From Anaerolineales bacterium (GTDB lineage Bacteria > Chloroflexota > Anaerolineae > Anaerolineales > UBA11858), in NCBI GenBank assembly GCA_024763275.1, contig JANTFT010000015.1:1-49034 (forward strand): 49,034 nt of DNA, in the 5' to 3' direction. Within the stretch, counting starts at the first letter, position 1, and each line of letters opens with the position of its first letter. The position numbers and the translations under genes were made by a program. Below the pieces are notes generated by a model. The model saw nothing but the letters and a program-made list of their open reading frames with translations. It was not told the origin of the DNA and did no database searches. Below, piece by piece: positions 21,838 through 25,867 of the stretch.

Positions 21838-21851
21838 AACTCTATTGGCTT

Positions 21852-21876
21852 GCAACTTTAGCGCCTGAAGGTCGTA
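21852..21876 (+). promoter_or_regulatory. ECF-type promoter upstream of the first sigma gene
   Basis: GCAAC (21852-21856) and CGTA (21873-21876) are separated by 16 bases, the AAC-N16-CGT pattern known for ECF sigma factors such as Bacillus SigW. It lies 34 bases before the GTG start of the ECF sigma gene, the position expected for autoregulation. A housekeeping reading (TTGCAA-N19-TATATT) is also possible but has poor spacing. Confidence 0.5.
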
Positions 21877-21910: not shown

Positions 21911-22522
21911 GTGGCAAACGAAGCACAATGGATTGCTGACGCGAAAACCGGCGATAAGGAGGCATTTTGCAAGCTGGTCGAAAAATATCAAAAACCGGTT
22001 TACAGCATATGTTACCGGATGTTGGGCACTCCCACCGCGGCGGAGGACGCCGCTCAGGAAGCTTTCATCCGGGCCTACCAGGCTCTAGATCGCTATGATC
22101 CGAAAAGATCATTTGCCACCTGGCTGCTGTCAATCGCTTCCAATTACAGCATTGACCAGCTCAGGAAGAAAAAAGTGACTATCCTGTCCATGGACAGTGA
22201 TAAGCATGCCTGGTTGGCACCGCCTGACCCGGGCCCCAGTCCTGAGCGGGCTGCCCTGGAAAAGGAAAAACAAGCCCTGGTTCAGGAAATGCTTGCTGAG
22301 CTTAACGAAATCGATCGGGCCGCTGTTATCCTGCAGTTCTGGCACGATTATTCCTACGAGGAAATCGCTGAGACCCTGGACCTCAGCAGCAGCGCGGTAA
22401 AAAGCCGCCTGTTCAGGGCCAGGCGTACTCTGGCAGAAAAATGGCAGGAAACGCAGGACGTTTCCGCCAAACCACAAAACCAGGCTGGAGAAAGGATTGC
22501 ACATGAATCACCAACAATATAG
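21911..22522 (+). CDS. ECF RNA polymerase sigma factor
   Basis: A 203-residue group 4 sigma factor starting with GTG after a GAGGAG site. Region 2 spans about 14-85 and includes the core-binding D-A-A-Q-E-A-F-I-R-A-Y and F-A-T-W-L-L-S-I-A-S-N. Region 4 spans about 115-180 and includes the Y-S-Y-E-E-I-A-E-T-L-D-L-S-S-S-A-V-K-S-R-L-F-R-A-R helix-turn-helix. The gene overlaps by 20 bases with the anti-sigma gene, which in turn overlaps the bactofilin-like gene by four, so the three form a tightly coupled operon. The signal and regulon are unknown; the third gene suggests an envelope stress or envelope structure role. Confidence 0.95.
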   Translation: MANEAQWIADAKTGDKEAFCKLVEKYQKPVYSICYRMLGTPTAAEDAAQEAFIRAYQALDRYDPKRSFATWLLSIASNYSIDQLRKKKVTILSMDSDKHAWLAPPDPGPSPERAALEKEKQALVQEMLAELNEIDRAAVILQFWHDYSYEEIAETLDLSSSAVKSRLFRARRTLAEKWQETQDVSAKPQNQAGERIAHESPTI

Positions 22523-23045
22523 TAACTGGATCCTGCTGGAGGATGACCTCGATCAAGAGCAGCAGCGAGAGCTCCATCTGCATTTGAAAGGATGCTCCCA
22601 ATGCCAGGCGCTTTACCAATCCATTCACCAGCTGGACCACCTCTTTAGAACCGCATCTGTCCCCACTCCCGGACCGGATTTCAGCTCCAGGTGGATGGAG
22701 CGGATCGAAAAGCGGGAAAGACGCAGGAACTACAGGATTCTTGGGACAACCCTGGGAATCGTATCTCTGGCTACCGTAGGGCTGCTTTCAATCATCGGAC
22801 TGGAAATTCGCTCAGTTGTAGATTTCTTCCCCCAGGTGATGCTGCAGCTGGTAACGTTGCTTGCAGAATGGTTGGTATTCCTGAGCCAACTCAGCAACAT
22901 CCTCACCCCGCTTTTTCTGGTGGGACTTAAATTAATCTCTCCCCTCTGGCTGTACACGATGCTATTCAGCCTGGGAGGAGCTGCTGCAGTCTGGGTTGGC
23001 AGGTCGATAATCAACCGGACCCTGCATAAGGAGCTAAACGCATGA
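22503..23045 (+). CDS. Anti-sigma factor with zinc-finger HxxxCxxC domain
   Basis: A 180-residue membrane protein. The N-terminal cytoplasmic domain holds H27-x3-C31-x2-C34, the zinc-binding signature of ZAS-type anti-sigma factors. About four hydrophobic segments follow (roughly 79-100, 110-125, 130-147 and 148-166), with little extracytoplasmic sequence, so any signal is probably sensed in or near the membrane. The ATG at 22503 has a GGAGAAAGGA site and lies inside the end of the sigma gene; an in-frame TTG two codons earlier is less likely. Translational coupling with the sigma gene fits a 1:1 partner. Confidence 0.85.
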   Translation: MNHQQYSNWILLEDDLDQEQQRELHLHLKGCSQCQALYQSIHQLDHLFRTASVPTPGPDFSSRWMERIEKRERRRNYRILGTTLGIVSLATVGLLSIIGLEIRSVVDFFPQVMLQLVTLLAEWLVFLSQLSNILTPLFLVGLKLISPLWLYTMLFSLGGAAAVWVGRSIINRTLHKELNA

Positions 23046-24217
23046 AAACCATTACACGCATCCTGATTCTGTTGCTGCTTGCATCCACAATAATCATACC
23101 CTCCACAGCATTCGCCTCTGGGTTTGAGGATGACAAAGTGATTATGGGTGGGAACTACATCCTGGAGGAAGGAGAAACCCTTAACGGCAACCTGGTCGTT
23201 TTTGGCGGTAATGTCACATTAAAAACGAACTCTACCGTAAACGGTGACACTGTGGTGCTGGGAGGTTCTGTCACTTCAAACGGGACCATTAACGGCAACC
23301 TGGTCGTCCTGGGAGGGATCGTCACCCTGCAAAGTGCAGCCCGGGTTAACGGGGATCTCACCGTCCTGGGAAGCAGTATTGAACAGGACCCGGGAGCGAT
23401 GATCAGCGGGAACATAGTCACTGAACAGAATATCCCATTTGATTTCAAAACACCGAAGAGCTTCGGATTTTTTAAAGGGGATTTCCCCCGGGTTCAATTC
23501 CCCCAGCTTCCCTTTGTGGCGGCTGCCTGGTTCGTCTTCAGGATCTTCATCTGGACTGGTTTGGCTGTGCTGATCACCCTCTTTGCCCAAGAGCAGGCGG
23601 TGGTAATCAACCGGACCGCTTTCAAAGAAGCCTGGATGTCCATCCTGGTCGGCCTGGGGGTAATCCTGGTCGCTCCCCTGGTGGCGCTGGCCCTGATCAT
23701 TACCATCCTGCTCAGTCCTGTCAGCCTGATAGGCATTTTTGCCTTGATCGCTGCCTGGGTGCTGGGGCTGGTGTCCCTGAGCATCGAGGTCGGCCGCAAA
23801 TTATCGCAGAGCTTCCATAAGAGCTGGCCAGAACCACTGATGGCGGGATTGGGTATGTTTATACTGGTCCTGATTTTCAATGGCTTCAGCCAGCTGGTAC
23901 CTTGTGTAGGCTGGCTGCCAAAATTCATCCTCGGTGCCTGGGTTCTGGGTGCGGTTATCCTGACCCGTTTCGGCACTCACAGCTACCCTGACCAGGAATC
24001 TGAGCAAATCACTTCCTCTGATCAGCTTCTTCCCGAGGCATTCCCTCCAGAAGAACCGGTGAAAGGGGTCCATCCTGGTCCTGCGGTAGAAAGCACACCA
24101 GCCGCCCGCCAGCTTGCAGAGCAGGAAGACATTGACCTGAACTCGCTTACTGGCAGCGGCGCAGGCGGTAAGATTACCATCAACGACGTCCGCCGGGCCA
24201 TCAAAGAGCGCGGTTAG
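23042..24217 (+). CDS. Bactofilin-like membrane protein with a C-terminal peripheral-subunit-binding-like domain
   Basis: A 391-residue protein with an unusual layout. A signal peptide (1-26) is followed by a beta-helical repeat region (35-128) of the polymer-forming/bactofilin type, with recurring units such as G-N-L-V-V-F-G-G-N-V and G-N-L-V-V-L-G-G-I-V. About five hydrophobic segments lie between 158 and 310. The last 40 residues (352-391) resemble the peripheral subunit-binding domain of 2-oxoacid dehydrogenase E2 proteins: T-P-A-A-R-Q-L-A-E, then D-L-N-S-L-T-G-S-G-A-G-G-K-I and N-D-V. The repeats would face outside and the tail probably the cytoplasm. Its ATG overlaps the anti-sigma stop by four bases, so it is the likely target or output of this sigma module. 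Confidence 0.75.
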   Translation: MKTITRILILLLLASTIIIPSTAFASGFEDDKVIMGGNYILEEGETLNGNLVVFGGNVTLKTNSTVNGDTVVLGGSVTSNGTINGNLVVLGGIVTLQSAARVNGDLTVLGSSIEQDPGAMISGNIVTEQNIPFDFKTPKSFGFFKGDFPRVQFPQLPFVAAAWFVFRIFIWTGLAVLITLFAQEQAVVINRTAFKEAWMSILVGLGVILVAPLVALALIITILLSPVSLIGIFALIAAWVLGLVSLSIEVGRKLSQSFHKSWPEPLMAGLGMFILVLIFNGFSQLVPCVGWLPKFILGAWVLGAVILTRFGTHSYPDQESEQITSSDQLLPEAFPPEEPVKGVHPGPAVESTPAARQLAEQEDIDLNSLTGSGAGGKITINDVRRAIKERG

Positions 24218-24245
24218 AACCAATCTTGAACGCAGGAGTACAATG

Positions 24246-24271
24246 AAGCCCCGGGAGACCGGGGCTTTTCT
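24246..24271. terminator. Shared terminator between the two ECF modules
   Basis: A perfect nine-bp stem AAGCCCCGG / CCGGGGCTT with loop GAGA, followed by TT-T-C-T-T on the plus strand. It lies between convergent operons. A second inverted repeat, CCTCCTTCC / GGAAGGAGG (24282-24305), follows without a T-run. Confidence 0.75.
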
Positions 24272-24327: not shown

Positions 24328-25176
24328 TCAGGATACCTTCCTGCGCTTGGACCAGGCAGCGCTGGCAAAACCAGCGGCTCCCAACCCCAGAGAGATTTCT
24401 AAGATCCGGATCCAGGGAACTCCCCGGCGGGGAGGAAGCTGACCTGTTTCCCCGGCCGGGGTATTTGAGATCTGTTCCGGTTCCGGAACAGCAGTGTAAG
24501 CCGGAACGCTGGCGGAATCACCCCTGTTTTGAGGCTCTTCACTCACCTGCTCCTCAGCTACCTGTTCTGTTCCTTCCGGAGCGGTTTTTACCTCCTCTTG
24601 CTCCGCAAAGGTTTCTGCAGTCGCAACGCTTTCTTCAGACGGCTGTCCGGCAGCCTCGGGGGCTCCGCTCTCTTCTTCGGCGGCAATCCCGACCGCTTGG
24701 TCAGCAGTCTCCTCGTTTGGAAGGGCTTCTTCAGCTTCCCGCACAGCAGGTTCTTCCGAAACTTCCTCAGCCACAGCAGCATCCGCGGCGGCTTCAGGAA
24801 GCGCTTCCAAGGCTATTTCTTCAGATTTAGGGGCGGAGGCTGCGAGCATTCCTCCCTTTAACATACCGGAGCCCAGATCGACTACCGCCACGGCAACAAA
24901 CAAGAAAGACAGCGCTGCTGCCGCCAGCCGGTATCCCCGCTCAGGAGACCGCCTGTGAGGTTTTCCAACCATAGCCGGAGTCAGCGTGAAATTCCGGGGA
25001 ATCCCAACCCGGGGCGTCAATGACAGAATCTGCTTGGTCCTTTTGATCTCGTTCAGGGCAGCTCGAAGCCCAGGCCGGTGTTCCAACCTGGTTTTCAACC
25101 TGCTCATTTCGCGGGGATTCAATTCGCCATCCAGATATGCGGACAGCTGAGTCCAATCCTTATTAGAGACCTTCAT
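24328..25176 (-). CDS. Putative membrane anti-sigma factor with acidic extracytoplasmic linker
   Basis: A 282-residue protein paired with the ECF sigma gene that it overlaps by four bases (ATGA). The N-terminal 50 residues (L-S-A-Y-L-D-G-E-L near 11-19, then a helical region) look like an anti-sigma domain, but the HxxxCxxC zinc motif is absent. A TM segment at about 83-104 is followed by a roughly 100-residue Glu/Ala/Val-rich acidic region (118-217), a short Pro-rich stretch and a second TM segment at 254-275 with a basic K-R-R-K tail. The acidic region is low-complexity and may act as a spacer across the cell wall. Regulation of the partner sigma by membrane proteolysis is plausible but inferred. 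Confidence 0.75.
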   Translation of the reverse strand: MKVSNKDWTQLSAYLDGELNPREMSRLKTRLEHRPGLRAALNEIKRTKQILSLTPRVGIPRNFTLTPAMVGKPHRRSPERGYRLAAAALSFLFVAVAVVDLGSGMLKGGMLAASAPKSEEIALEALPEAAADAAVAEEVSEEPAVREAEEALPNEETADQAVGIAAEEESGAPEAAGQPSEESVATAETFAEQEEVKTAPEGTEQVAEEQVSEEPQNRGDSASVPAYTAVPEPEQISNTPAGETGQLPPRRGVPWIRILEISLGLGAAGFASAAWSKRRKVS

Positions 25177-25787
25177 TCTGTTGCCACCTCATCTAGATGA
25201 CGAAATCTGCCTGGCAAAAGTTCCTGGAAGCCCCGCAGGCATTCCTGGAGACTCTTCCGGGCTCTTGCCAGACGACTTTTCACTGTGCCCAGGGGATTGT
25301 TGGTGATATCCGCAGCCGAAGCGTAATCCATTCCCTGAATATCCACCAGAACTACCATCATCCTGAAATCAAATTCCAGACGGTCAAGGCAAATCTGAAT
25401 AGCCCGGGAAAGTTCGCTGCGTTCGGCCGATTGTTCCGGACTCTCCCCGGGATCCTCAAGCCAGGAGGCTGTTTCCAGTTCTTCCCCTTGCTGATTTTCG
25501 GGTATCAGGGGTACGACGGGCTGTCTTTTTCGGCGGCGGTATTCATCATAACAAGCGTTGCTGACAATACGCAGCAGCCAGCTCTTGAACGAACCGCCCC
25601 GGTAAGTATGCAGTTTTCTGTACGCGGAAATAAAAGCTTCCTGAGTTGCGTCAGCAGCGGCATCCGGCTCGCCAATGATCCGGTAAGCCTGGTTGTAAAC
25701 CTGGGACTGGAACTGGAGGACTAACTGGTTGAAAGCATCCAGGTCGCCCGCCAAGGATCTTGTGATGTTCTCGTTGAGATCTATCAT
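25173..25787 (-). CDS. ECF RNA polymerase sigma factor
   Basis: A 204-residue group 4 sigma factor from the ATG at 25787; a TTG three codons earlier (25796) is an alternative start. Region 2 includes D-A-A-A-D-A-T-Q-E-A-F-I-S-A-Y and S-F-K-S-W-L-L-R-I-V-S-N. Region 4 includes the M-D-Y-A-S-A-A-D-I-T-N-N-P-L-G-T-V-K-S-R-L helix-turn-helix. An acidic linker of about 35 residues separates the two. It overlaps its anti-sigma by four bases. It follows the TPR gene by about 80 bases, so it may be part of the polA-TPR transcription unit or have its own promoter; I could not find an AAC-N16-CGT motif upstream. Confidence 0.94.
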   Translation of the reverse strand: MIDLNENITRSLAGDLDAFNQLVLQFQSQVYNQAYRIIGEPDAAADATQEAFISAYRKLHTYRGGSFKSWLLRIVSNACYDEYRRRKRQPVVPLIPENQQGEELETASWLEDPGESPEQSAERSELSRAIQICLDRLEFDFRMMVVLVDIQGMDYASAADITNNPLGTVKSRLARARKSLQECLRGFQELLPGRFRHLDEVATE

Positions 25788-25867
25788 CCTTGCCAATCCG
25801 CTGTCTATCCCGGCTTCTGCTGATCTCCGGGAGTCCTGAAAGCGATCAGGTTGTTGTAAAGGGTTTA

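Follow-up and report, generated by a model that had tools for sequence, protein, structure and literature searches.

A membrane protein ending in a domain of the peripheral subunit-binding type (PSBD) is encoded by the third gene of an ECF sigma factor operon in the window, i.e. the whole stretch of 49,034 nucleotides analyzed here, and in the same bacterial clade a like domain is joined to ribosomal protein S16. PSBDs are textbook components of pyruvate and 2-oxoglutarate dehydrogenases; as small docking domains they normally keep the pyruvate dehydrogenase complex assembled. The architecture of beta-solenoid, membrane helices and PSBD is real and unusual, and as the same tail was found in four further species, it is not a product of chance. 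About even chances are given to the reading that the PSBD constitutes a lineage-specific docking module, carried by an envelope-stress protein and by the ribosome, with a new partner in preference to the pyruvate dehydrogenase (PDH) complex. The interpretation should shift from envelope-tethered metabolism, as proposed in a first-pass annotation of this DNA, to a PSBD module that an envelope-stress protein and S16 have acquired for docking of a new kind.

Protein architecture and ECF operon

The open reading frame 23042-24217 (+) encodes a membrane solenoid protein of 391 aa with a PSBD tail. Its ATG overlaps the 3' end of the anti-sigma open reading frame by four bases, and it takes position three in an ECF sigma/zinc anti-sigma operon with the following features:

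21851..21876 (+), SigW-like ECF promoter, TGCAAC-N16-CGTA, conserved upstream of family ECF genes
21911..22522 (+), ECF sigma factor, 203 aa (PF04542 81 bits, PF08281 63 bits)
22503..23045 (+), anti-sigma-like membrane protein with HxxxCxxC zinc motif (zf-HC2, RsrA-like TIGR03988)
23042..24217 (+), membrane solenoid protein with PSBD tail, 391 aa (open reading frame, Pfam, alignment, AlphaFold2)
23042..23119 (+), its signal peptide, aa 1-26 (AFA-SG site by inspection; kept by relatives)
23135..23422 (+), its predicted exported bactofilin-like beta-solenoid, aa 32-127 (AlphaFold2, sub-threshold PF04519, Foldseek)
23510..23971 (+), its five membrane helices, aa 157-310 (AlphaFold2 model and hydrophobic spans)
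23972..24088 (+), its acidic, variable, proline-containing linker, aa 311-349 (pLDDT about 30, poorly alignable among relatives)
24089..24205 (+), its PSBD / E3_binding domain, aa 350-388 (PF02817 score, PSBD fold match)
24245..24268 (+), intrinsic terminator closing the operon (10-pair stem, then T-rich run)

A hydrophobic span at aa 1-28 covers the signal peptide. In the AlphaFold2 model, which at full length is weak (mean pLDDT 59, 10 sequences) and was interpreted for the solenoid, the PSBD and the helix spans, a regular beta-solenoid appears at aa 32-127 with a pLDDT of about 80, followed by helices at aa 157-181, 197-224, 228-257, 264-285 and 287-310, in agreement with the hydrophobic spans. 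As the number of helices is odd, the C-terminal tail is predicted to be cytoplasmic if the solenoid is outside. An extracytoplasmic beta-repeat region, about five transmembrane segments and a cytoplasmic PSBD-like tail, all read from the letters alone in the first-pass annotation, are thus found again in the prediction.

The designation ‘bactofilin-like’ from the same source holds for the fold, as the solenoid resembles the Thermus thermophilus bactofilin 6rib_A (TMt 0.62, Foldseek), but not for family membership, because PF04519 reached 24.6 bits, below its cut-off of 27.9 (Pfam search), and the protein is probably exported. Short right-handed beta-solenoid repeats are shared with bactofilins (PF04519; BacA 2N3D, T. 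thermophilus 6RIB), whereas the signal peptide, the five C-terminal membrane helices and the sub-threshold Pfam score set the protein apart. Bactofilins are typically cytoplasmic and rare membrane forms carry N-terminal transmembrane helices (PMC12448750); here, a signal peptide precedes the solenoid, which is predicted to lie outside the cytoplasm, unlike the cytoplasmic criterion for Bactofilin.

For the tail, a profile search had been set beforehand as the refuting test, and aa 352-384 matched PF02817 (E3_binding) at 41.4 bits (E 1.6e-10) with a curated cut-off of 23.7. The AlphaFold2 model of the tail consists of two helices (aa 353-361 and 380-390, pLDDT about 80) and superimposes on solved PSBDs with an rmsd of 0.6-1.0 A over 35-42 residues and a target-normalised TM-score of at most 0.90 (Foldseek). 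By sequence, the nearest solved chains were the PSBD-bearing PET hydrolase 7QJM and E2 PSBDs. With the latter (PF02817; 1W4I, 2EQ7, 1EBD) the tail shares a profile score above cut-off, the two-helix fold and the flexible linker; it differs in being carried by a membrane protein without lipoyl or acyltransferase domain (no match to PF00364 or PF00198 in the 391-aa protein, Pfam search), in its neutral or acidic helix I, and in being retained where PDH E1 and the E2 PSBD were lost. An independent precedent for a PSBD outside dehydrogenase complexes is PET hydrolase 202 (7QJM), the domain of which is called a PSBD in the paper on it (PMC9772341), although its host protein is an alpha/beta hydrolase unrelated to the solenoid protein. 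In a full-text search of the open-licence PMC literature, no paper was found on a combination of PSBD and bactofilin. A DNA-binding role of the PSBD was considered and rejected, as it found no backing in the literature search and fits poorly with the acidic surface.

The ECF operon noted in the first-pass annotation is recognised by sigma regions r2 and r4, a membrane anti-sigma factor and a promoter of its own. The best NCBIfam resemblance of the sigma factor is to SigW (147/138 bits, below cut-off), and the zf-HC2 domain PF13490 of the anti-sigma-like protein scored 19.4 bits, just under the cut-off of 22.2, with the HxxxCxxC motif visible in the sequence. The order sigma factor, anti-sigma factor, solenoid protein is kept in nearly all sufficiently long family loci, and TGCAAC-N16-CGT stands 52-77 bases upstream of the sigma factor start in 17/18 family ECF regions, compared with 0.6% in shuffles. 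The SigW consensus is TGxAAC-N16-CGTA.

A stricter pattern, TGCAACT-N15-CGTA, had four sites genome-wide in the genome of the window (G000), compared with one for the reversed control pattern. The four lie before the operon itself, before a solenoid paralogue on contig C30, before a LiaF-TM-like gene on contig C32 and near no clear gene. The site on C30 (C30:18818-18843; L120 / L028) is upstream of an exported solenoid paralogue of about 450 aa without PSBD, and in the related genome G005 (L027) the ECF promoter is likewise found upstream of an exported solenoid paralogue. On C32 (C32:12048-12073; L121) the pattern precedes by 108 bases a 208-aa membrane protein, which scored 22 bits against LiaF-TM, below the cut-off of 27; this promoter link was seen in one genome. 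Because the promoter recurs before the solenoid paralogue and possibly before the LiaF-like gene, these genes and the operon likely belong to an envelope-stress regulon. Zinc anti-sigma factor, TGxAAC-N16-CGTA promoter and membrane-protein targets are likewise features of SigW/RsiW-type ECF regulons and LiaF-type proteins, but the target here is a solenoid membrane protein, in one clade with a docking domain.

A second ECF sigma/anti-sigma pair (24328-25796, -) is convergent with the operon and adjoins it in most clade members; its anti-sigma-like protein has a long Glu/Ala-rich region.

Distribution of the tail and its occurrence on ribosomal protein S16

The solenoid membrane protein was detected in 21/21 family genomes and in 241/396 class genomes. 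In contrast to this wide occurrence, its PSBD tail was present only in G000, G002, G005, G006 and G007, which all belong to one genus, and was absent from all other genomes sampled in the genus, the family and the class. The genomes are MAGs of 84-93% completeness, so that absences of genes are uncertain; the records that carry a name are Chloroflexota, several of them labelled Anaerolineales. In the clade tree, tailless G008 groups with G005 and G007 (99) within the tailed clade (100); its solenoid protein shows no PSBD remnant and ends in an acidic stretch, followed by a terminator-like hairpin. Nested as it is in the clade, G008 has most simply lost the tail. The sigma factor row of G006, whose contig begins inside the anti-sigma gene, is the paralogous second ECF, which results in a long branch and low local support there and leaves the placement of G008 (99) unaffected. 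The tail is a recent acquisition, confined to one clade, of a protein that is widespread and as a rule tailless. Absence of the architecture from relatives, which would have refuted the first-pass annotation, did not occur.

In G000, PF02817 gave four matches, two of them in E2, one in the solenoid protein and one in a fusion with ribosomal protein S16. This fusion of 260 aa (L003:1486-2265, -, contig C91) carries an N-terminal PF00886 domain (76.2 bits), to which a C-terminal PSBD (PF02817, 46.5 bits) is joined by a long acidic Glu-Pro linker. It is found in all six clade members, G008 included (further loci L031, L045, L047, L048, L060), while a search for S16 in 298 class genomes gave, among the matches listed, none outside the clade that reached the tail. 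The full-text search of open-licence PMC literature found no paper on E3 binding domain and ribosomal protein S16 together. Across the genus, a lineage-specific PSBD profile matched only S16, the bactofilin-like protein and E2, weaker matches being insignificant. One further candidate, G007:C14:1-102, was rejected as a fourth PSBD protein, since a neighbouring contig overlaps there and repeats the end of the bactofilin-like gene.

In the order sample, the module profile scored 78-84 bits on the S16 and bactofilin-like tails and at most 63 bits outside the clade, there mostly in E2-sized frames, a gap which exists partly by construction, as the profile was trained on tail sequences. In a PSBD tree of 37 columns both kinds of tail formed one group (UFBoot 98), which weakly suggests a common origin as sister copies. 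Such kinship, together with a clade distribution that is the same except for G008, would fit a common tag by which both proteins reach one shared partner, e.g. a factor of quality control or secretion when the envelope is under stress. This seems quite improbable, however, since the two genes have no operon in common, the genome scan of G000 gave no ECF promoter near S16, G008 retains the S16 tail only, and there is no candidate partner.

A Nei-Gojobori comparison of G007 with G005 gave dN/dS values of about 0.34 (bactofilin-like tail) and 0.23 (S16 tail), from small counts. The PSBD fold is intact in five (solenoid) and six (S16) diverged species with 61-66% protein identity, and the domain was conserved while the linkers diverged almost beyond alignment. 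Both tails appear to be under purifying selection. Neutral drift of a functionless PSBD fragment, once acquired through recombination, as its restriction to one clade and its clean loss in G008 might indicate, is scarcely credible against dN/dS values below 1 and a domain that outlasted its own linkers.

Dehydrogenase genes, docking surface and proposed role

In G000, G005 and G006 the PDH operon is intact, with genes for E1 alpha, E1 beta and an E2 with two PSBDs adjacent to each other. No match to E1 of PDH was obtained in G002, G007 and G008. The E2 of G002 (L108:7461-8465, 335 aa) retains lipoyl and catalytic parts without a PSBD, and in G007 an E2 remnant of 195 aa (L109:5777-6361) is located next to the E3 gene, and the usual downstream neighbour of E2 is in place; the contiguous flanks of the remnant indicate a deletion, not an assembly gap. 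PDH decay was independent in G002 (E2 without PSBDs, no E1) and G007 (truncated E2 remnant). In G008 neither E2 nor E1 was found.

The bactofilin-like tail therefore persists after E1 and the E2 PSBDs were lost twice (G002, G007), and the S16 tail persists in three species without E1 (G002, G007, G008). This weakens the link between metabolism and envelope organisation suggested in the first-pass annotation, which predicts co-dependence with PDH, as does helix I of the tails, which is basic where it docks E1 or E3 and here neutral or acidic. Recruitment of the whole PDH complex or of E1 by the tail would agree with the known function of the PSBD family and with the intact operon in three genomes; moreover, an E2 gene survives at least in part in each of the five species with a bactofilin-like PSBD, and G008 has neither E2 nor that tail, possibly a sign of a loose tie to PDH. 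We nevertheless consider such recruitment very improbable, in view of the two tailed species without E1 and E2 PSBD, the reversed charge of the docking surface, and G004, which has no tail and whose PDH is complete, though different.

The mean net charge was +1.7 in E2 PSBDs (n=18), -0.4 in bactofilin-like tails and -0.7 in S16 tails, and for helix I it was -1 to -3 in the bactofilin-like tails and 0 in the S16 tails. The position equivalent to Bacillus stearothermophilus Arg139 is Glu in 11/11 tails, and position 136 is acidic in 4/5 bactofilin-like tails. As the basic charge of helix I is lost or reversed, a canonical docking mode of the tails is unlikely. Arg135, on the other hand, is kept in 3/5 bactofilin-like tails and is Arg or Lys in all S16 tails, so that weak binding of E3 (dihydrolipoamide dehydrogenase) is possible, and with it a link of the tail to E3 alone.

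E3 was found in 21/21 family genomes; it is a canonical PSBD partner and the sole such partner present in all six tail-carrying genomes. Canonical docking of E3, by which NADH-linked dithiol chemistry would be tethered to the membrane and via S16 to the ribosome, is rather unlikely all the same: besides Glu at 139, the acidic residues at 136 and the negative helix I of the bactofilin-like tails, E3 is equally present in tailless relatives, which renders its co-occurrence uninformative. Because the tails outlive E1 and the E2 PSBDs and the basic surface of helix I is lost, a lineage-specific protein, or E3 in a new use, is the more likely partner when compared with the PDH complex.

Under the preferred reading of a lineage-specific docking module, the solenoid gene would act as effector in an envelope-stress operon of a SigW-like ECF factor, and its product, exported via the signal peptide, would expose a short beta-solenoid on the outer side of the membrane, in which five helices anchor it. 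In one clade a PSBD would have been joined through a flexible linker to the cytoplasmic end of this protein, and a sister copy to ribosomal protein S16. We infer that the PSBD may serve as a docking tag by which a soluble protein of the cytoplasm is brought, during envelope stress, to the membrane scaffold or, where the tag is on S16, to the ribosome. More tentatively, and with somewhat less than even chances, the PSBD might have been freed from dehydrogenase assembly altogether to become a general docking tag on the acidic arm of S16 and on the envelope-stress membrane protein. If true, such a tag would couple translation and envelope stress to a partner outside 2-oxoacid dehydrogenase complexes. 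How a docking domain changes its partner can be studied here in a natural experiment, as a single module is carried by a ribosomal protein and by an envelope protein under ECF control and has, in close relatives, outlasted the dehydrogenase.

The clade's own E2 (L112:4151-5470, -) has two unlike PSBDs, the second of them with a basic helix I and Arg at the 139 position, the first with Glu there in 2/3 species, which suggests specialised partners.
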